In this document: positions 5,219 to 34,818 of the stretch, piece by piece
Numbering within the stretch: the stretch's first letter is position 1
How the letters are laid out: every line of letters begins with the position of its first letter
IMG/VR virus record: IMGVR_UViG_3300044678_003030
Location: 1 to 64,000 of that record
Length of the DNA: 64,000 nt
Strand: one strand, 5' to 3'
Origin: a virus
The notes under the pieces: generated by a model
What the model saw: only the letters and a program-made list of their open reading frames with translations
Databases searched by the model: none
Told to the model about the DNA's origin: nothing
Made by a program: the position numbers and the translations under genes

Positions 5219-5574
5219 TGTGCATCCTTCTTCTCGTTGGCGGCGCGGAAGACGGCGACGAAGCCCTCGGGGTGGTCGCCGTTCTCGCGGTCAGACAGCA
5301 CGAAGACGTAGTCGGGGTGGACGTCGCGCCACACCGTGATCGCGGGGGAGCTACAACCATCACCGATCTCGACGCGGGCACCGATGAGGTAACCATCTCC
5401 GTCTTTGAGCTTCCACTCCTTCACGTGAAGCCACGTGAAGTCGAAGTTCACTTCACCATCAAGAGCATCAGCAAGCTGGCTCACGAGAGTTTTGCGGAAC
5501 GCCTCGATGGCGCTGTAGTGCGAGGAAATGCTCTCGATGAGCGTGGCCGTCATCCTTTGTTCGTAGGTGATCAC
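5215..5574 (-). CDS. Hypothetical protein, 119 aa
   Basis: Not recognised. An N-terminal helix is followed by alternating strands (DFTWLHVKEWKLKDG, GYLIGARVEIGD, ITVWRDVHPDYVFVL). Within it, at 5420-5429, lies TTCACGTGAA, the two palindrome half-sites with no spacer. Confidence 0.65.
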   Translation of the reverse strand: MITYEQRMTATLIESISSHYSAIEAFRKTLVSQLADALDGEVNFDFTWLHVKEWKLKDGDGYLIGARVEIGDGCSSPAITVWRDVHPDYVFVLSDRENGDHPEGFVAVFRAANEKKDAQ

Positions 5575-5951
5575 TGAGCAGCCTCCTTCTCCAGGCGCTT
5601 CGCGATGTCAATCAGGTTGAAGATGTCTTCCTTGGTGCGTCCGTGCGCGTCATTGAACACCACGATGTCGATGTCTCCGTTGAGATAATCGGTGTAGTCC
5701 TCGCCCGTCAGGACACGCCCCAAGGCTTTGTGGAGCGGGCGGGTCGCGCGGTCGCGGACGTCGTCCACCCCGCTACGGGAAGCGCACGCGAGCACCAGCG
5801 CACCACGAAGACAGAAGGAACACGCAGTGGGCTCGGCGTAGTCCGTCGGCTTGCCCTCCGCATCACGGGCGTACGTCCCCTGCGTCCACCCCTTCTCCGT
5901 CAGGATCTTCTTGGTCTCATCCAGGACATCGATCACGTCGTTGTAGCTCAT
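5571..5951 (-). CDS. DUF6197-like protein, 126 aa
   Basis: The pattern of an N-terminal helix ending in GWTQGTYARD, a CSFCLRGAL segment, and a C-terminal FNDAHGRTKEDIFNLIDIAK resembles the DUF6197 family as I remember it (small proteins of actinobacteria and phages with a W-Q-G start and a ND-GRT motif). The family's biochemical role is not known. It is the second gene of the operon. Confidence 0.5.
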   Translation of the reverse strand: MSYNDVIDVLDETKKILTEKGWTQGTYARDAEGKPTDYAEPTACSFCLRGALVLACASRSGVDDVRDRATRPLHKALGRVLTGEDYTDYLNGDIDIVVFNDAHGRTKEDIFNLIDIAKRLEKEAAQ

Positions 5952-7618
5952 TGGATCTCCTCGATTGCCTTGTAGATGCTCTTCCAGCGGCGGAGCGCGA
6001 CGCCCTTGATGTTGGCGTCAAGCCACGCGGCGTCGTGGAGCTGCGCGATCGTGGTGCCGCGCTTGTTGAGGATGGCGCGGACGTAGGCGGCGCGGCGGCG
6101 CAGCCGGGCGAGTGAGTGGTGAGGGAAGCGCTTCAAGAAGTCCCCCCAGAAGTCAGCGCGCTTCCACTTCCTGGCGTAGAGCGACAGGTAGGTGTCCTCT
6201 GCGATCGTGAAGGGGTACGCCTTGGCCCGCTTGCGCCGCTTGGCGTCCGTGGCCTCGTTGAACGCCTTCTTCCAGTCCAGCTTGGAGCCATAGAGACGCT
6301 GGAGGTGCGCCGAGAGGGCCGGCTGCTTGAGATGCGTCGCGAGGACAGAGAGCGAGACGAAGAGCGTCGCGGGGACATCTCGGAACCGGTAGCAGGGGGC
6401 GCCGGCCTCGTTGTAGGCGGCGAAGTCCTTGGCGGCGAGGTTGACGAGGAGACCAGGAGGGATGTTGTTGAAGGCGTCGATGTTGATGAAGAGGGTTTCG
6501 TTCTTGCGGCCGAGCGAGAGCGTGGGCGTGGTGACGAGGTCCGCGAACTCGGCGGGAGTACGAACCGTGATCTCCTTGAGGCGCCGATGGCGTGGAGGTC
6601 TTTCACCCCGTGAAAGGTGCTGGCCAGTGGTCTTCTCGGCGCGCTTGATGAACGCGGAGGCGTCGGCCCGGTAGATGACCGTGAAGTTGGCAGGGCTGTA
6701 GCTGACCGACTGGAGCTGATCGGTGCGCTCGAAGATGCGCACGCACGTGTCCTGCCCTGCGGTGCGGAAGGTCTCGCGGAGCCAGTCGCGCAGGTTCGCG
6801 GCGGCTGAGATGCGCTTGGCCTCTGGCACGGCCTCGGCGATCGTTTCGGCGCGGAGCCACGCGGGGTGGTCACCCGTGGTGATGACGTCGAGGGCGACGC
6901 CCTCGTGCCGGATCACGACGTAGTTGTTGTCGACCATGACACCGTAGCGCTCGCGACGGAGGAGGGCTGCGAGCTCTTCAGCGTAGGAAGTGCGGCAGGA
7001 GATGGGGAGAGTGCAGACAGCGTCGACGAGGTGGGTGTTGTCGATGAGGCCAGGAGCGTCGACGAAGGCAGGGGCGTAGAGCTCGGAGACGCTCAGGTCT
7101 GCGTTGGAGGCGCCGGTCCAGAGGTAGGGGGCGAAGAGGAGGTTGAACTCCTTACGCAGCAGCGTGCGTACACGCGGGCGAAGGCGCAGCAGTCGCGCGA
7201 GCTGCGTGCGGACCTGGGAGAAGCGGTCGAGGTCGCCAGCGGTCGTGTGGCCAGGGCTCTCGACGAGGTGGGAGCTGAGGACCGAGGGGAACGGAGGTTG
7301 GACGAGTGGGCCGAAGGCGGCGAGGCGAGCCCTGATGAGAGGGCAGACGGCGTCGAAGGCGGGGGACGCCGCGATGAGCTGGAGCGCGATGAGCGTCGGC
7401 TGCGACGACTCGATCGAGCCCTCGGGCGGCAAGAGCCCTGTGGCGAGCTTCGCCCAGTCCAGGCGCAGACGGCGGCTGGGGGTGACCCCCGCGAACGAGA
7501 CCCCCGCAGGGAGCGACCCGGAATGGTGCGTTACGAGGTTTTGCAGGGCAGAAACCATATAACGACGCCAAGAGGCTTCCCAGCTAGGCTTTATAGCGAG
7601 CGGCTTCTCATCTTTCAT
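5948..7618 (-). CDS. Large early protein, 556 aa, Myb-like C-terminus
   Basis: First gene of the leftward operon, with an AAGGAG ribosome site 6 nt before the ATG and a 135-nt leader running back to a TATAAG promoter. Function not recognised. Near the C-terminus, FTIAEDTYLSLY, FWGDFLKRFP and HSLARLRRRAAYV follow the three-helix Myb/SANT pattern (E-D, W, then a basic third helix), suggesting DNA binding. The rest is an alpha/beta protein with no motif I can name. The first ~20 codons are duplicated in inverted orientation at 8543. One palindrome (6602-6614) lies inside. Confidence 0.7.
   Translation of the reverse strand: MKDEKPLAIKPSWEASWRRYMVSALQNLVTHHSGSLPAGVSFAGVTPSRRLRLDWAKLATGLLPPEGSIESSQPTLIALQLIAASPAFDAVCPLIRARLAAFGPLVQPPFPSVLSSHLVESPGHTTAGDLDRFSQVRTQLARLLRLRPRVRTLLRKEFNLLFAPYLWTGASNADLSVSELYAPAFVDAPGLIDNTHLVDAVCTLPISCRTSYAEELAALLRRERYGVMVDNNYVVIRHEGVALDVITTGDHPAWLRAETIAEAVPEAKRISAAANLRDWLRETFRTAGQDTCVRIFERTDQLQSVSYSPANFTVIYRADASAFIKRAEKTTGQHLSRGERPPRHRRLKEITVRTPAEFADLVTTPTLSLGRKNETLFINIDAFNNIPPGLLVNLAAKDFAAYNEAGAPCYRFRDVPATLFVSLSVLATHLKQPALSAHLQRLYGSKLDWKKAFNEATDAKRRKRAKAYPFTIAEDTYLSLYARKWKRADFWGDFLKRFPHHSLARLRRRAAYVRAILNKRGTTIAQLHDAAWLDANIKGVALRRWKSIYKAIEEIQ
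6602..6614. repeat. TTCAC-N3-GTGAA palindrome (centre CCC)
   Basis: Inside the 556-aa early gene. Confidence 0.9.
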
Positions 7619-7752
7619 GAAGGCTCCTTGAGTTGAAGGGTCTTGCGGCGAACTAAAAATCAGGGGCGCTGTGAAATATAGGTACCCTGCGAAGGGTGTT
7701 GTTGCAGGAATCAGCGACGCTGTAAAGGAAATCGAGCAGGTTCGACTAGAGA

Positions 7753-7780
7753 CTTATACCAAATATATCAGGGCCTTTAG
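7753..7780 (-). promoter_or_regulatory. TATAAG-class promoter of the leftward operon
   Basis: Read on the minus strand: CTAAA, 17-bp spacer, TATAAG preceded by GG. Same architecture as the seven rightward TATAAG promoters. It gives a leader of about 130 nt to the ATG at 7618. Confidence 0.6.
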
Positions 7781-7896
7781 CTTTCGCAACGCAACCCATT
7801 GAAGCTGCTCAGGAAAGCCTGTGATCAGAATGTCACTATAGGACGAGTTTCACGTTTTGGCCTACAGCACAGGCAAATCCACGAGTTTTGCGCTCC

Positions 7897-7909
7897 AGGT
7901 TGACAACCT
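7897..7909. promoter_or_regulatory. Palindrome AGGTTGACAACCT, possible operator
   Basis: Perfect odd palindrome in the left arm; its mirror at 8252-8264 has one change (AGGTCGTCAACCT). It sits in one of the best-conserved blocks of the arms, upstream of the outward promoters, as expected for a repressor or activator site. Confidence 0.45.
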
Positions 7910-7930
7910 CCAAATACATAGGGGGGGTCT

Positions 7931-8231
7931 GAAGAGCTCACGTACGCACGCGACCTCCTCAACATAGTGTAGCGTAATGTATCTATAATATATTAGGTTT
8001 CCTGGACACGTATATATTGAGACCCTCAGAGCTGCTGAAATTCTGTAAAGGCTGCAAACCCCGTAGGGGCACCCTCCGGGTGATCCCGAACAAGGCGCGG
8101 CGCGGCGCCGCCCGGTTCGCGGCCTCGCGGTGTGTTTCGCTTGGATTCCCGGTGAATTCGCGCTGCCGGAGGTCGGTGGGAGATCGGCCCACCAATGCCG
8201 GGCTCCTCCGTGGAGGGAGTGCGCTCTGCTC
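7931..8231. other. Non-coding centre of the inverted duplication
   Basis: About 300 bp without a convincing gene. The left half is AT-rich (TATAATATATTAG near 7985); the right half is GC-rich with local hairpins CCCC-GTA-GGGG at 8059-8069 and CACCC-TCC-GGGTG at 8070-8082. Short frames on both strands are Arg/Pro/Ser-rich and have no ribosome site. Confidence 0.6.
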
Positions 8232-8613
8232 TGGACCCCCTATGTATTTGGAGGTCGTCAACCTGGATCGCAAAACTCTCGGATTTGCCTGAGTTACAGC
8301 GCAAAACGTGAAACTCGGCCTATAGTGACATTCTTGTCGAAGCCTTTCCTGGGTGTTTTCAGCCGGTTGCGCTGCAAAAAAAGATGGCCCTAATATATTT
8401 GGTATAAGTCTCTAATCAACGTTGAGCTTTCTACCTTGTTCTGCTGTGATTTCCTGCAACAACACCCTTCACAGGGTACCTATACTTCACGCGAAGGCTT
8501 CACCTTTATTTCGTTCGTTCACCTGCTTTTCAGGACGTTCCAGTGAACGATGAGAAATCGCCCAGTATAAAGCCTTCAACACAAGCTTTTCTCCCGTTAT
8601 ATCCGTTTCTCTG
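8232..8613. repeat. Right arm of the large inverted duplication
   Basis: Mirror image of 7550-7930, at an estimated 75-80% identity by eye, with blocks of 20-40 bp nearly identical. The leader hairpin is kept as ACCCT-TCAC-AGGGT, its only change being in the loop. Confidence 0.85.
8403..8408 (+). promoter_or_regulatory. Decayed mirror TATAAG promoter
   Basis: GGTATAAG is kept in the right arm and points outward (rightward), but 17 bp upstream the expected nnAAA is AAGAT. It would transcribe only the gene remnant at 8543 and then run antisense to the next gene, so it may be inactive. Confidence 0.4.
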
Positions 8614-8794: not shown

Positions 8795-9487
8795 TTAGCG
8801 GGCTTCGAGGACAACGCGGTCGCGCTGATAGGTGTTGTACTGGTGGGAATCGTGATGCGGCGTGTACTTGCCCGTTCGCACGAGCAGGAAGAGCACGTCG
8901 TGAAACGCTTCGGACTCACGGCAGACGCTGCCTGTGATGGCGGCGCTGTTGAACTTGTGGAGTCTGCGCACGGCGTCGAGCTTGTTGAAGCACGGCCAGA
9001 GGTAGTAGGCGTTGTGGATCCTGTGCACACGCGCGCTGAGCACGCTCGGCGTGGTGTTTTGCCCGTGTGTCCACACGCCGATGGCGACGCCCATGCCATA
9101 GGCGCGCACCAGATAGTCACGCCGCCACGGTGCAGGCCAAGGAGCGAGGAAGATCAGCGTGAGCAACCACCACGGCGAGAACACCGCCAACAGCGCCAGC
9201 GCTGCAAACCCTTGTGGAAACAGCCACTTAGGCCAGAACAGCCTGTCCTTCTTTTGCTCTTCGAGGAGCACGTAGCCCTGCGCGAGCATCTTGAAGCTGT
9301 ACCAGGGGTCGGCGTCGTACGCCTCGGTGCTCGGTACGTAGAAGGTGCGACCGATCGCCGACCAATGATGGCGGTAGACAGGGATGTGGGCGTGCAGCAT
9401 CGACGCCTTCTTCGCCCGCACTTTCACACCGAGCCGATGAGCGATCTGCCGTTCGAGCGCCTCGCGAAGGTTGCGGTTGTCTGCCAT
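8795..9487 (-). CDS. Membrane-associated hypothetical protein, 230 aa
   Basis: I start at the ATG giving MADNRNLREALERQ, because GAGGTGA lies 7 nt upstream within the palindrome at 9492-9504; a longer frame reads through that palindrome. A hydrophobic hairpin (FPQGFAALALLAVF, then WWLLTLIFLAPWPAPW) lies around residues 88-120, so it is probably inner-membrane bound. The C-terminal half is His/Tyr-rich. Function unknown. It is an isolated minus-strand gene facing the inverted repeat. Confidence 0.7.
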   Translation of the reverse strand: MADNRNLREALERQIAHRLGVKVRAKKASMLHAHIPVYRHHWSAIGRTFYVPSTEAYDADPWYSFKMLAQGYVLLEEQKKDRLFWPKWLFPQGFAALALLAVFSPWWLLTLIFLAPWPAPWRRDYLVRAYGMGVAIGVWTHGQNTTPSVLSARVHRIHNAYYLWPCFNKLDAVRRLHKFNSAAITGSVCRESEAFHDVLFLLVRTGKYTPHHDSHQYNTYQRDRVVLEAR

Positions 9488-9567: not shown

Positions 9568-10056
9568 ATGATCACGCTGTATAGGTCGTACACGAGCCTC
9601 ATGCTTGGGATCGCCGAGGGGCGGTACCAGGACAAGGTTCTCCTTGATCCTGCGTGCAGGTTTTTCTTCGGGTGTTCGTGGCCCCTCGCGACCAACCCCG
9701 AGCGCTCTCTGCGCGAGAACTTCTACGTGGGCACACCCGCGCCGATCGTGCCCACCTCAGACGTGGACGCGCTACGCAACATCGTCGGGCTGTTCGCGGC
9801 CTACTACGGCGCGGATGTCGCGAACCTTCAGTCCCGCACGCGCTTCGCCAAGGATCATCACGGGGTCAAGACCGCGACGAGCGCGACGATCGAGCACCTC
9901 CTTGACTGGCCTTTCGCCACGTTCGAACGCCACCTTCAAGGGAGTCGTATCAAGGCAGAGAACGTCGTCGACAGCTATTCCGATCTGGAGGAGGCCGTCG
10001 AGATCGTCAACCTCTCCGGCATCGACCCCCAGGTCAAGGTCGTGTGGAGGCGATGA
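9568..10056 (+). CDS. Hypothetical protein, 162 aa
   Basis: Not recognised. Preceded by GAAAGGG and a 40-nt leader from the TATAAG promoter. Soluble alpha/beta protein with cysteines at ACRFFFGC and a helical C-terminal half. First gene of a short coupled set (ATGA overlap with the next). Confidence 0.7.
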   Translation: MITLYRSYTSLMLGIAEGRYQDKVLLDPACRFFFGCSWPLATNPERSLRENFYVGTPAPIVPTSDVDALRNIVGLFAAYYGADVANLQSRTRFAKDHHGVKTATSATIEHLLDWPFATFERHLQGSRIKAENVVDSYSDLEEAVEIVNLSGIDPQVKVVWRR

Positions 10057-29788: not shown

Positions 29789-30811
29789 GTGGGCGTGCTA
29801 GATAACTCATTCACGCGGAAGATGCTTACGAACGACGTGAGTCGCGCGTTGTCGGAGCGTTTTCCTGAGGTCAAACTCACGCTCCAAGGTGACACTGACG
29901 CGTCTTACATGCCGAAGTTCTTCCTGAACGAAGCGCCTGAGGTTACGATCGGGTCAAAGCACTTGGACTCGCCGCATGTTTTTGCGCACGAGTACGGGCA
30001 CCACCAGTTCGATCAAACACCTATCGGTAGCGCTGTTCAACACCCTGTTTTTCGAGGGATTTCTAACTACGCGAACATCCCGTTGAGCGCTTTGGCGGGA
30101 GTTGCCGCTGCTCGTTCTGACAAGAAGTGGGCTCCTTACGTAGGGGCTCTTGCTCCGGTGTTGACTTCGTTGCCAGTTCTCGGCTCTGAGTACATGGCGA
30201 CGCGGAACGCTATGGGGCTTATGCGCGACGCTGGGGCTTCCACGCAGCAGATCGCTGACAGTAAGAGAGAGCTCGCTGGTGCGTATGGGAGTTACGCGAC
30301 ACAAGCCCTGCTGGCAGCAGCCGCGTACGCCGCGCCGTTTTTGGCGAAGAAGTACTGGCGTACAGCTCCTCCTCCCCCCAGGTGGGGAGACGAGGAGTAC
30401 ATCAGAGGAGGGGAGGAAAATACCAAGGCGGCATCGCTCTTGGATATGGCGCCGAACTGGGATAGCCCTGTGCGCGCGCGTGTGATTCAGGGAGGGGTAA
30501 CTGGCGGCGCGGCGGGGCTTCTCGCGGGCATTCCCGTAGGTCTTTTGGCTCCAAGGCTGTATGGTGGTAGCGACGACCGGCTTAGGGGTGTGTTGTCGGC
30601 AGCAGGCAGCATGGGGCTATTGGGTATGGGTTCCGGTGCGATAGCAGGCAGCGTTCTTGGTGGTTACGAAGAAGGGCTTCAATACGGGAGTCATCCCGAT
30701 AAGTACGACTATGACCCGATTGTTCAATACACCTATCCCCCGGACCCGCTCGGGGCGGTAGCCAATAGGCTCGGCGTTCGCGATGGTGAGCGTTTTCGGG
30801 GTGCTCGGTGA
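29789..30811 (+). CDS. M48-like zinc metallopeptidase with membrane helices, 340 aa
   Basis: GTG start. HEYGH at residues 67-71 and GSEYMATRN (E134) give the HExxH plus downstream glutamate arrangement of gluzincins; the paralogue at 22838 shows the same. Two alanine/glycine-rich helices lie between and after (SALAGVAAARSDKKW, ATQALLAAAAYAAPFLA). The C-terminal third (residues 215-300) has more glycine-zipper helices (GGVTGGAAGLLAGIPVGLL). TKAASLLD in the linker resembles the K-x-A motifs of internal head proteins. Its GTGA overlap with the giant downstream gene suggests both are virion proteins delivered together. Confidence 0.7.
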   Translation: MGVLDNSFTRKMLTNDVSRALSERFPEVKLTLQGDTDASYMPKFFLNEAPEVTIGSKHLDSPHVFAHEYGHHQFDQTPIGSAVQHPVFRGISNYANIPLSALAGVAAARSDKKWAPYVGALAPVLTSLPVLGSEYMATRNAMGLMRDAGASTQQIADSKRELAGAYGSYATQALLAAAAYAAPFLAKKYWRTAPPPPRWGDEEYIRGGEENTKAASLLDMAPNWDSPVRARVIQGGVTGGAAGLLAGIPVGLLAPRLYGGSDDRLRGVLSAAGSMGLLGMGSGAIAGSVLGGYEEGLQYGSHPDKYDYDPIVQYTYPPDPLGAVANRLGVRDGERFRGAR

Positions 30812-33800
30812 GCCACTCCCACCGCTGGTCGTCTTTCTACGTCCCCGGCGACGCCTATCGGTACTGCGCGTGCGGCGCGATCGAGACGGTCTCGCCGGAT
30901 GGCGAGCACGGGCCTGTGCCGGCCAAGGAGGAGGGATTCGTCCGTCGCCACATCGAGCGCCTGGAGAAGAGCGCGGAGGCGCTCAAGAAGACGCTTGGGC
31001 CCTTCACCTTCGAGATCGATCGGCCCGAAGGAACTACGAAGGCGTGGCCCGGTGGCAAGTCCTTTACGTACCCCGTCGACTACGGATTCTTTCCGAAGCT
31101 CGAAGGGGAGGACGGGGAGGGACTGGATGCGTTCGTGGGAGATGACCCGCACGGTCACCTGGAGTCCTTCCAGAAGCTCAAGCCGAACAAGGACGGCAAG
31201 CTCGTCGCCGACGAGACGAAGTACCTGCTCGGCGTGAACGACCGTCAACGCGAGACCATCTACAAGCTCTACGGGCGAGAGATCAACGCGCGTCGCGTGT
31301 ACGACACATGGGAGGCGGTGGAGCGGTCGTTGGCGCGGTTCGAGAAGGAGGCGTCTGAGCCGGAGGAAACTCCGGTTTGGGAGAAGGACGTTCGCGACGC
31401 CGCCGGGGTTGCGCTCGCAGGGCTTGGCGCACGAAGTCTTGCGCATGGGGCTGCGGAGGACCTGCTAGGCGCGCAGAGGTTCTACCACGGTACTGGTGAT
31501 GCAGCGGCAGCGGCGATTCGCCGTGATGGCCTTTTGGCTTCAATGGGAGGTAACCCCAACGGCAGTGCGTCTCTTTCGGGAGTCCAGTCTTACGTAAAGA
31601 ATTCAAAGGGTCATGTACACGTCGGCACGGGCTTTTTAGGTGCGCAGGCGGCTCGCGGCTACGCCTCGCTCGTGGATGCCAAGGAGCGTAATCCGCTTCT
31701 TTCCAACGAAGGCGCAATGTACGCGTACCTGCGTGGGATGGGCCCTGGGCACAAAGGCACTGTTCTTCAGGGCGCTGTCCCGTACGAGTGGCTCTCCAGC
31801 AACTTTTCACCGGACCCTGATAGCGGCGGTAGCAGCGCTGCCCTCAAGGGGCAGGTGGACATCGGAGCCTCCCACATTTCAGACGGCGCCGTAGGTCTTC
31901 GAGACCTCTACAAGAATCGAGCTCCTGACCTCCTTGGGTACGTGAAGCGCAACCCACGTCGTGTTGCGCATGGCGCCTTGATGGCCGGAGGGTCTTTGGC
32001 CGCTGTGTACGCTGCATATCGACTGGCCAAGATGATCCAGGACCGACACAGTAGCCCAGAGCAGGAGCCTGTTGTGGAAGCAAAGCTCGGAGCTGCCGAT
32101 GCCCCCTCGAATCTTCTCGGACTCGTGGGCACGCCTCAGTACTACCTGACGCGCGCCGCTGACTTCCGTCGCCGACACCCTGATCTCCGCGCTCCTGACT
32201 ACTACAACGAGTACGGCGATCGCTACGCCCACCGCTTCGAGAGCCAGACTCGTCCTCGGCTCTCTCCGGCCGGGCAGGCGTGGTTCGACAAGACCAAGCA
32301 CGGCCTTCAGTATGCGATCGAGCAGAAGCGCCTCGAAGACCCTGAAGGGTTCGACGCCCTTGAGCGTGACCCCAAGGCGTTCCACCGCTTCGCGTACGAC
32401 ACGCACGGCCCGGTGTACCTGAACTCAGGGATTCGCAAGCTGCCGCTGCGCGACCTCATGCGCGTGGCGCGCACGCCAGACCTCAAGGATGTCATCAACC
32501 GAGATGGTCTACGTCTTGTGGGGCAGGTCTTGAATCCGTTCAACAAGGCGGCCTCGGTCAAGGAGGCGCGAGTCCCTACTCATGTGAAGCAGTACCGCCG
32601 CGCGCTTCAGATGTTGGCAGAAGGGCAACACGACTTCCACGGCACCGCGAATCTTCCTGGTGTTGTACGGACCGGTCGTGTTGTTGGCGGGAAGAATGAC
32701 GCGTACCATACAGGCGGCAAAGCGTACTTTTCGCGCGGTTTTCCACTGGCTGAGTACTTTGACTACGAGACCTCGAAGTACAACGATGGAGGGTTCGCCT
32801 TCCCTCGTGTACAGATGGACAAGAACAAAGCGGAGATCATTCCGGGGACACCTGCAACCTTGCCGGTTCCCTACGTAGCTGCTTGGCACGCCCCCCTTCA
32901 ACAGGGCGCTACCGTCTTTGTGACGTCTCCCGCTGCGAAAGTGCGCGAGGCAGCAAGCGCCGCGCAACGTAAGTTCAATCTGCGCCGCGTTGACCCCGAG
33001 GCTTACGCCCTCGCCGTTGAGACCCTGAAGGGCAACGTGTCTCCTGGTGCTTCCCAGCACATACTCAAGAACCTCGAAGGTCCGTATACCCCGGTTATGC
33101 CAGCGCCTTCAATTTCCGCCTCCTCTGTTGCAACCCCTCCCGCTGCGCCCTCTGTCTATTCCATCCTCAATCGCCGCAACGCCGCGATCGCAGGCGGTAC
33201 CCTCGCCACGGCTGCCGCGCTGTACGGAGGCCACCGTTGGCTTCGTTCACGGCGTGAAAAGGAACAAGAAAAGGTCGCTGACGCAGTGGAACAAGACCCG
33301 TCCGAACAGCCGCCGAAGAAGTCCTGGCTACGTCGCAACGCGGCCCCGATTGCAGGGCTGACGACGGCAGCGGTAGTTGCACCGCTTCTCTATCGCTACC
33401 TGCGTAAGCAGCGACTGAGCAATGACCCCGCACTCCGCTCGATTCAAGAGGCATCGGGCGGCAGGTTCGGCCGCATCCTTGAAGGGCGGCAAGAGGCGAT
33501 GTCTGCGCCACGTCGTTGGCTCGACCGATTGATCTACTCAGGTGGCGGCGATGTCCACTACCAGGACAACCTCATCGAGGCGGCGCGCAAGAGTGGCAAG
33601 GTGCCGCAGGTTGAGGGGGTGCTCCTTCACAACGCGCCAGGGAAGCAGCTTGCACAGGGGGCCTCAAACCTTATCGCGAATCGTGATTCCGATGCGGTGT
33701 CGAGCATCTTTGACAACGGTAACAAGTGGCAGGAGTACAACATCTTCGAGCACTTTGCGCCGGGGTCCATGGGAAAGACCGAGAACGTTGCAGACGTTCT

Positions 33801-34818
33801 CGCTGACATGGGGCACAACCTCGGAGCTCGCAACCCGCGAGAGCGCGGACAGCAGGTCGAAGCCTTCCGTAAGGCCATGTCCAACAACGGCGCGCGTAGG
33901 CGAGACATGCTCGCGGAGCTTCAGAGTAACCTCCGTCAAAGGTTTGGGGACGGCTTCCTTCTCAAGGACGTCGACGCTGCTGCTACGGGGGGGAAGTTCC
34001 CCTCGGATCTGCACAACTTCACAGATCTTGTGAACGAGGATTCGCCTGCGGCGAAGACTCTGATCAACGCGATCAAGGATCCGCGAAGTGTGATCGCGCA
34101 GTCGAAGCTGCCGCTCGCTCAAGGATCGTGGCTCGACCGGCAGTTTGCCAAGCTCCGTGGCCTGCCATCTACGCAGGAAGTTCGTGTCCATGTGATGAAC
34201 GGTGCGGTCGCCCCGGACCTCACAGTGCCGCGCTTCTCTCCGACGATGTGGCTCACCGGACGAAAGACGATGCGCGGCGCGGACCAGTACGCGCGTGATC
34301 TGCTTACGAAGTTGCCCGAGGAGCTTCAGCGCGGGACGTATGCGATGGACGTCGCACCGCTCGTGGGTGGCGGGTACAAACTCATTGAGTCTAATCCTGG
34401 TTACCGTAGTGGTTTCTTGAGCCCCGGTAACCATCCGGTAATCGGACCTCTTCTGCACAAGCAGTTCACTGGCCAGCACAGCCAAATGGTTTCTGGCCTT
34501 GGTGCCGGCGCGGGCGCTGTTGGCGGAGGGCTTACGGCAGCGGCTGGTGCGCGGTACCTCGCCAACCGGCAGCAGCCGGAGCAAGAGTCTGAGCTTCACG
34601 GCGTGAAACAAGCCAGCGCCTTCGACGCCCTCAACTGGGTCCCCGCTCCTTTCCAGGGGCGCGTGCAGTCCCCGCAAGAAATCGTCTACGCCGCGCGCTC
34701 TACCCCTGCTCTCGCGGCGACACAGGAGAACCTTCGGCTGCTTCAGGTCGCCCAGGACCCCTACGGCACCGGGTCTCCGACGCAGGGCGTCTCTCACCAT
34801 CGACGTCATCACGGCTAG
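30808..34818 (+). CDS. Giant polyvalent-type protein, 1336 aa
   Basis: GTG start overlapping the upstream TGA. Domains by eye: (1) residues ~62-158, phage-type inorganic-pyrophosphatase-like domain with YPVDYGFFPKLEGEDGEGLD; (2) ~222-345, ADP-ribosyltransferase-like, opening RFYHGTG; (3) hydrophobic helix ~385-408; (4) ~605-705, a second ART-like domain, opening HDFHGT with a later YFSRGFPLAEYF; (5) hydrophobic helices ~793-812 and ~845-863; (6) ~940-1225, ATP-grasp-like, with GDGFLLKDVD and MDVAPLVGGGYKLIESNPG; (7) a glycine-rich helix ~1229-1250. K-x-A tripeptides (KEAS, KAAS, KQAS) lie in the linkers. Such chains fit polyvalent proteins injected with phage DNA to disarm the host. Catalytic residues are not all assigned. 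Confidence 0.65.
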   Translation: MSHSHRWSSFYVPGDAYRYCACGAIETVSPDGEHGPVPAKEEGFVRRHIERLEKSAEALKKTLGPFTFEIDRPEGTTKAWPGGKSFTYPVDYGFFPKLEGEDGEGLDAFVGDDPHGHLESFQKLKPNKDGKLVADETKYLLGVNDRQRETIYKLYGREINARRVYDTWEAVERSLARFEKEASEPEETPVWEKDVRDAAGVALAGLGARSLAHGAAEDLLGAQRFYHGTGDAAAAAIRRDGLLASMGGNPNGSASLSGVQSYVKNSKGHVHVGTGFLGAQAARGYASLVDAKERNPLLSNEGAMYAYLRGMGPGHKGTVLQGAVPYEWLSSNFSPDPDSGGSSAALKGQVDIGASHISDGAVGLRDLYKNRAPDLLGYVKRNPRRVAHGALMAGGSLAAVYAAYRLAKMIQDRHSSPEQEPVVEAKLGAADAPSNLLGLVGTPQYYLTRAADFRRRHPDLRAPDYYNEYGDRYAHRFESQTRPRLSPAGQAWFDKTKHGLQYAIEQKRLEDPEGFDALERDPKAFHRFAYDTHGPVYLNSGIRKLPLRDLMRVARTPDLKDVINRDGLRLVGQVLNPFNKAASVKEARVPTHVKQYRRALQMLAEGQHDFHGTANLPGVVRTGRVVGGKNDAYHTGGKAYFSRGFPLAEYFDYETSKYNDGGFAFPRVQMDKNKAEIIPGTPATLPVPYVAAWHAPLQQGATVFVTSPAAKVREAASAAQRKFNLRRVDPEAYALAVETLKGNVSPGASQHILKNLEGPYTPVMPAPSISASSVATPPAAPSVYSILNRRNAAIAGGTLATAAALYGGHRWLRSRREKEQEKVADAVEQDPSEQPPKKSWLRRNAAPIAGLTTAAVVAPLLYRYLRKQRLSNDPALRSIQEASGGRFGRILEGRQEAMSAPRRWLDRLIYSGGGDVHYQDNLIEAARKSGKVPQVEGVLLHNAPGKQLAQGASNLIANRDSDAVSSIFDNGNKWQEYNIFEHFAPGSMGKTENVADVLADMGHNLGARNPRERGQQVEAFRKAMSNNGARRRDMLAELQSNLRQRFGDGFLLKDVDAAATGGKFPSDLHNFTDLVNEDSPAAKTLINAIKDPRSVIAQSKLPLAQGSWLDRQFAKLRGLPSTQEVRVHVMNGAVAPDLTVPRFSPTMWLTGRKTMRGADQYARDLLTKLPEELQRGTYAMDVAPLVGGGYKLIESNPGYRSGFLSPGNHPVIGPLLHKQFTGQHSQMVSGLGAGAGAVGGGLTAAAGARYLANRQQPEQESELHGVKQASAFDALNWVPAPFQGRVQSPQEIVYAARSTPALAATQENLRLLQVAQDPYGTGSPTQGVSHHRRHHG
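33246..33258. repeat. TTCAC-N3-GTGAA palindrome (centre GGC)
   Basis: Inside the giant gene, just after a hydrophobic helix. Confidence 0.9.
34595..34607. repeat. TTCAC-N3-GTGAA palindrome (centre GGC)
   Basis: Near the 3' end of the giant gene, read as LHGVK next to a KQAS motif. Confidence 0.9.

Follow-up and report, generated by a model that had tools for sequence, protein, structure and literature searches.

The immunity region of phage lambda is a divergent promoter-operator region of phage regulators, and the oriL of herpesviruses is a palindromic replication origin situated between divergent genes. For uncultured phages with bacterial-type RNA polymerases, the start sites of transcription and of replication are little known. 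In the current analysis we describe, in a phage of this kind, a mirrored non-coding region that resembles both systems in part. With lambda-type regions it shares divergent transcription, which is predicted here, a compact intergenic region, a putative DNA-binding regulator gene next to it and repeated operator-like sites. With oriL it shares mirrored arms, a location near genes of replication or regulation in an intergenic region, which is strictly divergent in the relatives with strong mirrored arms, and an origin-binding protein, for which there is a candidate.

The window, which is the whole stretch of 64,000 nucleotides that was analysed, is made up of positions 1-64000 of a virus record 93,956 bp in length, and the phage is referred to here as G000. 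Beyond the window the record encodes a bacterial-type RNA polymerase made up of a fused beta/beta'-like ORF of 1690 residues (68890-73962) and a separate beta' part of 607 residues (65353-67176). A SNF2-type helicase, a primase, a family-A DNA polymerase and a sigma-70-like protein are also encoded in the genome. A Sigma70_r2 domain protein at 81268-81459 on the minus strand scores above the Pfam cut-off, and the relatives of G000 have one too. The polymerase is about 33% identical over its full length to those of Salmonella phage Arash and of Vibrio phages D69, D148 and D181, and the fused bacterial-type beta/beta' form is common to all of them. Polymerase subunits and a sigma factor have been detected in Arash virions (PMC10585845). 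Gene content and the likeness of the polymerase to those of Arash and the Vibrio phages place G000, as a tailed phage, in an unclassified and mostly uncultured group. The N-terminal part of the fused polymerase ORF (71984-72233) also has an inverted nucleotide similarity to 30971-31235 of the window, which lies in an ORF (30808-34818) with a weak Pfam match to InPase (PF18823); this similarity suggests an inserted domain common to the two ORFs.

Mirrored arms and their conserved blocks

Comparison of the 93,956-bp record with itself by BLAST has identified one strong inverted pair in the whole genome, 7671-7925 and 8236-8490, with an identity of 78% (E-value 1.6e-58). In a gapped alignment the similarity extends over about 7550-7958 and about 8190-8613, with 77% identity over 408 columns. 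Aligned without gaps, the two arms keep register over 340 bp, 7925 down to 7586 against 8236 up to 8575, where 240 of the 340 positions are identical and 100 are mismatched. The left arm (7586-7925, minus strand, recognisable to about 7550-7958) is proposed as a control module reading leftward into a gene of 556 codons, and the right arm (8236-8575, plus strand, recognisable to about 8193-8613) is its mirror copy and reads rightward. The arms are low in GC. The spacer of 310 bp between them (7926-8235) has no arm-like similarity and has a GC-rich middle, reaching 71% GC at 8101-8200. The region falls in the largest non-coding gap of the genome (7618-8794, 1176 bp; the runner-up is 479 bp). A reading as terminal inverted repeats of a mobile element is not supported, the arms being unique in the genome with no further copies. 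A scan of the window against Rfam gave no match.

The similarity between the arms is concentrated in five blocks; in each arm the distances from one block start to the next are 71, 79, 77 and 80 nt. Identity is about 93-97% in four of the blocks (54, 29, 29 and 40 bp) and about 73% in the fifth, at the start codon. The columns outside the blocks are 52% identical, two long patches being near 33-45%. An alternation of conserved blocks with diverged patches had been described in the original prediction; the switches between block and strongly diverged patch come every 30-50 bp. A permutation test on the gapped alignment gave a p value of 0.012 only. Because the placing of gaps makes the patches look more alike than they are, the ungapped view was used in its place, together with neutral simulations in which one arm was evolved with uniform substitutions and indels and then realigned. 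The real arms have 123 columns in windows of at least 96% identity, whereas the simulated ones average 11, with 59 as the 99th percentile, and none of 306 matched simulations reached the observed clustering of blocks. Uniform drift is rejected. Neutral evolution therefore does not describe the right arm taken as a whole, contrary to one outcome that had been envisaged for it, and its blocks are under selection. The spacing of the blocks is probably selected as well.

Block 1 (7872-7925, minus strand) reads CCCCCTATGTATTTGGAGGTTGTCAACCTGGA..CGCAAAACTC..GGATTTGCC and contains the dyad AGGTTGTCAACCT; in the right arm (8236-8289, plus strand) 49 of 53 block columns are identical to it. Block 2 (7829-7857, minus strand; AAACGTGAAACTCGTCCTATAGTGACATT) is identical at 28 of 29 positions to 8304-8332 on the plus strand, and the pair are the only two occurrences of this block in the genome. 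The sequence TCACTATAGG, the core of T7-type promoters, is found at 7833-7842 (plus) and 8319-8328 (minus), both copies pointing inward; it was rejected as a signal, its presence in both arms not being beyond chance for the window.

Block 3 (7747-7775, minus strand; GGCCCTGATATATTTGGTATAAGTCTCTA) includes the -10 element of a sigma-70-like promoter, TTGCGA-16-TATATT, placed by a promoter scan at 7789-7762, about 140 nt upstream of the start codon. Its counterpart (8386-8414, plus strand; GGCCCTAATATATTTGGTATAAGTCTCTA) differs at one position, and the block has no further copy in the genome. The -10 block is kept on the right. The hexamers and the ribosome site of the right arm are weaker, with the extended -10 TG and the -35 weakened to the point that the TG and a good -35 are lost. 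The DNA patterns of blocks 2 and 3 are absent from the viral collection, and that of block 2 also from the genome collection.

Block 4, the leader block (7671-7710, minus strand; TTCCTGCAACAACACCCTTCGCAGGGTACCTATATTTCAC), is 95% complementary to its mirror at 8451-8490 (plus strand) and contains a short hairpin. A leader hairpin conserved in both arms had been proposed: the block is indeed conserved in sequence, but the two leaders fold no better than shuffled sequences (z -0.23 and +0.33). A protein-binding or other sequence role of this block is hence more likely than one as RNA structure.

Block 5 comprises the start codon and first codons of the 556-aa gene on the left (7586-7618, minus strand; MKDEKPLAIKP) and a GTG with the first codons of another frame on the right (8543-8575, plus strand; MNDEKSPSIKP). 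The two start frames, MKDEKPLAIKPS and (GTG)NDEKSPSIKPS, are as had been described. The right frame stops after 66 codons, and its coding homology to the 556-aa gene ends after about 12.

The 556-aa gene itself occupies 5948-7618 on the minus strand and is followed directly downstream by a gene for a DUF6197 family protein (5571-5951, minus strand). On the other side an orphan gene of coding-like composition (8795-9487, minus strand) faces the right arm, so that the region is flanked by minus-strand genes on both sides in G000, and the next rightward gene starts at 9568.

Mirrored gaps and Myb-like proteins in related phages

Relatives were found in the viral collection by means of the polymerase and a probable capsid protein, which gave 8 and then 80 related loci, and 23 related contigs besides G000 were read in whole or in large part. 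The 556-aa gene and the arm sequence are absent from all the related contigs read. Short DNA matches to relatives (E 0.008-1), one of them inside a coding region of r7, are attributed to chance.

Mirrored arms of their own have been identified in several of these phages. Non-coding gaps, 254 of them in 21 contigs, were delimited with a simple, purpose-written gene caller on contigs that may be incomplete or circularly permuted, and were compared with shuffles preserving dinucleotide composition. Mirrored arms at p<0.001 are present in 6 of 35 divergent gaps, in none of 28 convergent gaps and in 4 of 191 tandem gaps, one of the last being the G000 locus itself; divergent gaps are thus enriched over the others (6/35 against 4/219, Fisher p 6e-4). 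The strong cases are r2 (G002, IMGVR_UViG_3300044939_000165, the region of which is also present in a near-identical second contig), r7 (G007), G010, G015, G017 and G027, all six strictly divergent. From one of these genomes to another the mirrored arms are unrelated in sequence. G010 repeats the block-and-patch pattern, in gap-free register, over about 170 bp. The arms of r2 have the promoter-like cores TTATAAT and TTATAAAG, and a gene starts about 20 bp from one of the arms. Beside the r2 arms (L027) a 47-bp unit is repeated four times (1457-1645), and both arms contain long stretches of alternating purines and pyrimidines (1998-2047 and 2222-2290). Apparent mirrored gaps of G020 and G029 were discarded as opposite-strand tRNA genes or repeats; in G020 (L247) a tRNA-like gene pair on opposite strands, at 6398-6877, mimics a mirrored region.

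The gene adjacent to the arms, or to the equivalent gap, is co-oriented with the capsid and polymerase genes in 11 of 11 loci examined. The recurrence of a mirrored region at an equivalent spot suggests a common, so far undescribed start point for transcription or replication. An intact second copy of the arm-adjacent gene was found in no relative, and the far-side genes, where comparable (G017 and G027), belong to another family. The earlier proposal that a right-hand gene has been lost finds no support in these loci.

A Myb-like DNA-binding domain is predicted in the arm-adjacent proteins of eight relatives, which form two homologous sets: G010, G015, G012 and G013 in one, and G017, G027, G025 and G028 in the other. 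G012 and G013 are close relatives and do not count as independent, and the arm-adjacent proteins of G016 and G017 are identical. Four of the arm-adjacent proteins match Pfam PF00249 below its curated cut-off (best 1.8e-4), and the family profile, with the G000 fragment included, matches c-Myb structures at an E-value of 1e-10; by profile comparison, these proteins are thus predicted to carry a Myb-like domain. The profile finds seven genes with this domain in the 21 contigs, and each of them lies next to a divergent non-coding gap of 490 bp or more. In a forward test, a search of further contigs for the Myb family identified G028, in which the gene borders a divergent gap of 567 bp with weak mirrored arms (p 0.0024). 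Mirroring at the Myb-family loci is frequent and not universal, since clear mirrored arms are missing in G012, G013 and G025 (p 0.70, 0.21 and 0.04). No relevant paper came up in literature searches for Myb-like proteins of phages or for mirrored divergent regions in phage genomes.

The 556-aa protein has no homologue in phage records, viral contigs or the relatives. Its C-terminal motif FTIAEDTYL resembles the Myb-like domain of the relatives' arm-adjacent proteins and occurs once in the six-frame translation of G000, exactly in this gene. The pattern [WF][TSI]..[EQ]D..[LI], which was written after seeing these proteins and hence is no independent test, is found in only 10 of 2924 called proteins, and 8 of the 10 are products of arm-adjacent-type genes, the 556-aa protein among them. 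When the 556-aa protein is left out of the Myb profile, the profile fails to recover it, and its C-terminal part, modelled from the family alignment (pLDDT 72), matches no structure significantly in Foldseek. For these two reasons its assignment as a Myb-like regulator, on which the short motif and the position of the gene agree, is tentative. An AlphaFold2 model of the full 556 residues from the single sequence (pLDDT 39) was not used.

Control region, replication origin and other explanations

We favour, with moderate confidence, the explanation that the feature is a two-way control region made up of two inverted promoter/operator modules and regulated by the adjacent protein. Each module would consist of upstream protein-binding blocks, a promoter core, a leader block and the start-codon context, and the two copies would stand back to back. 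The left copy would serve the 556-aa gene and its leftward operon, and the right copy would be kept under selection, probably for rightward transcription or for completing a symmetric binding array. Since the relatives' arm-adjacent proteins have a predicted Myb-like domain, the simplest mechanism would be that the 556-aa protein recognises the matching blocks of the two arms and controls transcription to either side, that of its own gene included; the presence of a predicted DNA-binding gene next to the arms likewise suggests auto-regulation through sites in both. Conservation of the leader and of the start-codon context on both sides points to transcription, beyond DNA binding alone. The weaker promoter hexamers on the right and the orientation of the next gene on that side, which faces the arm, count against a two-way region. 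So do the failure to recover the 556-aa protein with an independent Myb profile and the three Myb-family loci that lack clear mirrored arms. As anatomy, the inverted duplication that was originally thought to have formed a two-way region, with elements selected on both sides, is well supported by the selection on the blocks and by the relatives' own mirrored regions.

The same weak right promoter and ribosome site, together with the early end of the coding homology and the lack of a downstream gene homologue beyond the right arm, would fit a chance inverted duplication of an operon head, of which the right copy is non-functional and owes its likeness to recombination or gene conversion between the arms. 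Such a relic is improbable: blocks and patches alternating at fixed spacing are not what neutral drift produces, and relatives have independent mirrored arms at this locus. Far less probable still is a structural role, in which the arms form a long DNA hairpin or cruciform or a long double-stranded RNA. They could pair over 255 bp around a loop of 310 nt; the long patches would not pair, however, and show no compensation, the leaders of single arms fold like shuffles, and the predicted arm transcripts run outward so that neither would hold both arms. The long structured RNA suggested for the locus is unsupported on these grounds, and the relatives keep the architecture and not the sequence.

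The main rival explanation, a serious one if somewhat unlikely, is that the mirrored region is a bidirectional replication origin, with the arm-adjacent protein as its origin-binding initiator and the blocks as symmetric initiator sites; it may coexist with promoter function. The largest non-coding gap, the low GC of the arms and the adjacent predicted DNA-binding gene all fit an origin. GC skew, which had been named as a check, bears on it in a mixed way. Uncorrected skew minima were dropped, being confounded by gene direction, in favour of regressions of third-position skew (GC3) with coding strand as covariate. So corrected, the best-scoring origin falls less than 3 kb from the locus, with a strong signal in G015 (0.2 kb, t 9.8), r2 (0.9 kb, t 13.5) and G012 (2.9 kb, t 8.6), and also in G013 (0.9 kb) and, with weak support, G000 (2.1 kb, t 4.0). 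It is not near the locus in G017, G025 and r7. Local tests give p about 0.0015-0.004 when nine loci are combined; among them the sign is reversed in G017 and a signal is lacking in G025. For G000 the local skew shift is weak to absent (t -0.3 to 2.3), and genome-wide the locus reaches only the top 18% of positions. Kinship deprives G012 and G013 of independent weight, the half-genome split of r2 coincides with its division into core and accessory genes, and an origin does not require conservation of a leader block and start-codon context. Rather unlikely, in our estimate, is a wider conjecture by which this group of polymerase phages would start its early programme, transcription and replication together, at one mirrored centre recognised by a phage Myb-like protein, with centre and protein co-evolving at such a rate that the sequence turns over but the mirrored architecture and the gene order are retained.

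Comparison with known divergent regions

Among the phages with a related polymerase, Arash differs from G000 in having neither a comparable mirrored region nor the Myb-like motif. Unlike oriL, with which it has no homology, the G000 region has imperfect arms separated by a 310-bp spacer, and its origin signal, from GC skew, is weak. A recurring locus, a predicted DNA-binding protein and defined symmetric blocks together make it a directly testable candidate. In lambda-type regions, the counterpart of the control region favoured here, whole modules are not known to be mirrored, whereas in G000 modules of 340 bp are, including the leader and the start-codon context. The mirrored sequence, again unlike that of lambda-type regions, is unrelated between relatives while the architecture recurs, an apparent case of conserved architecture with replaced sequence of the kind that similarity searches alone would miss.
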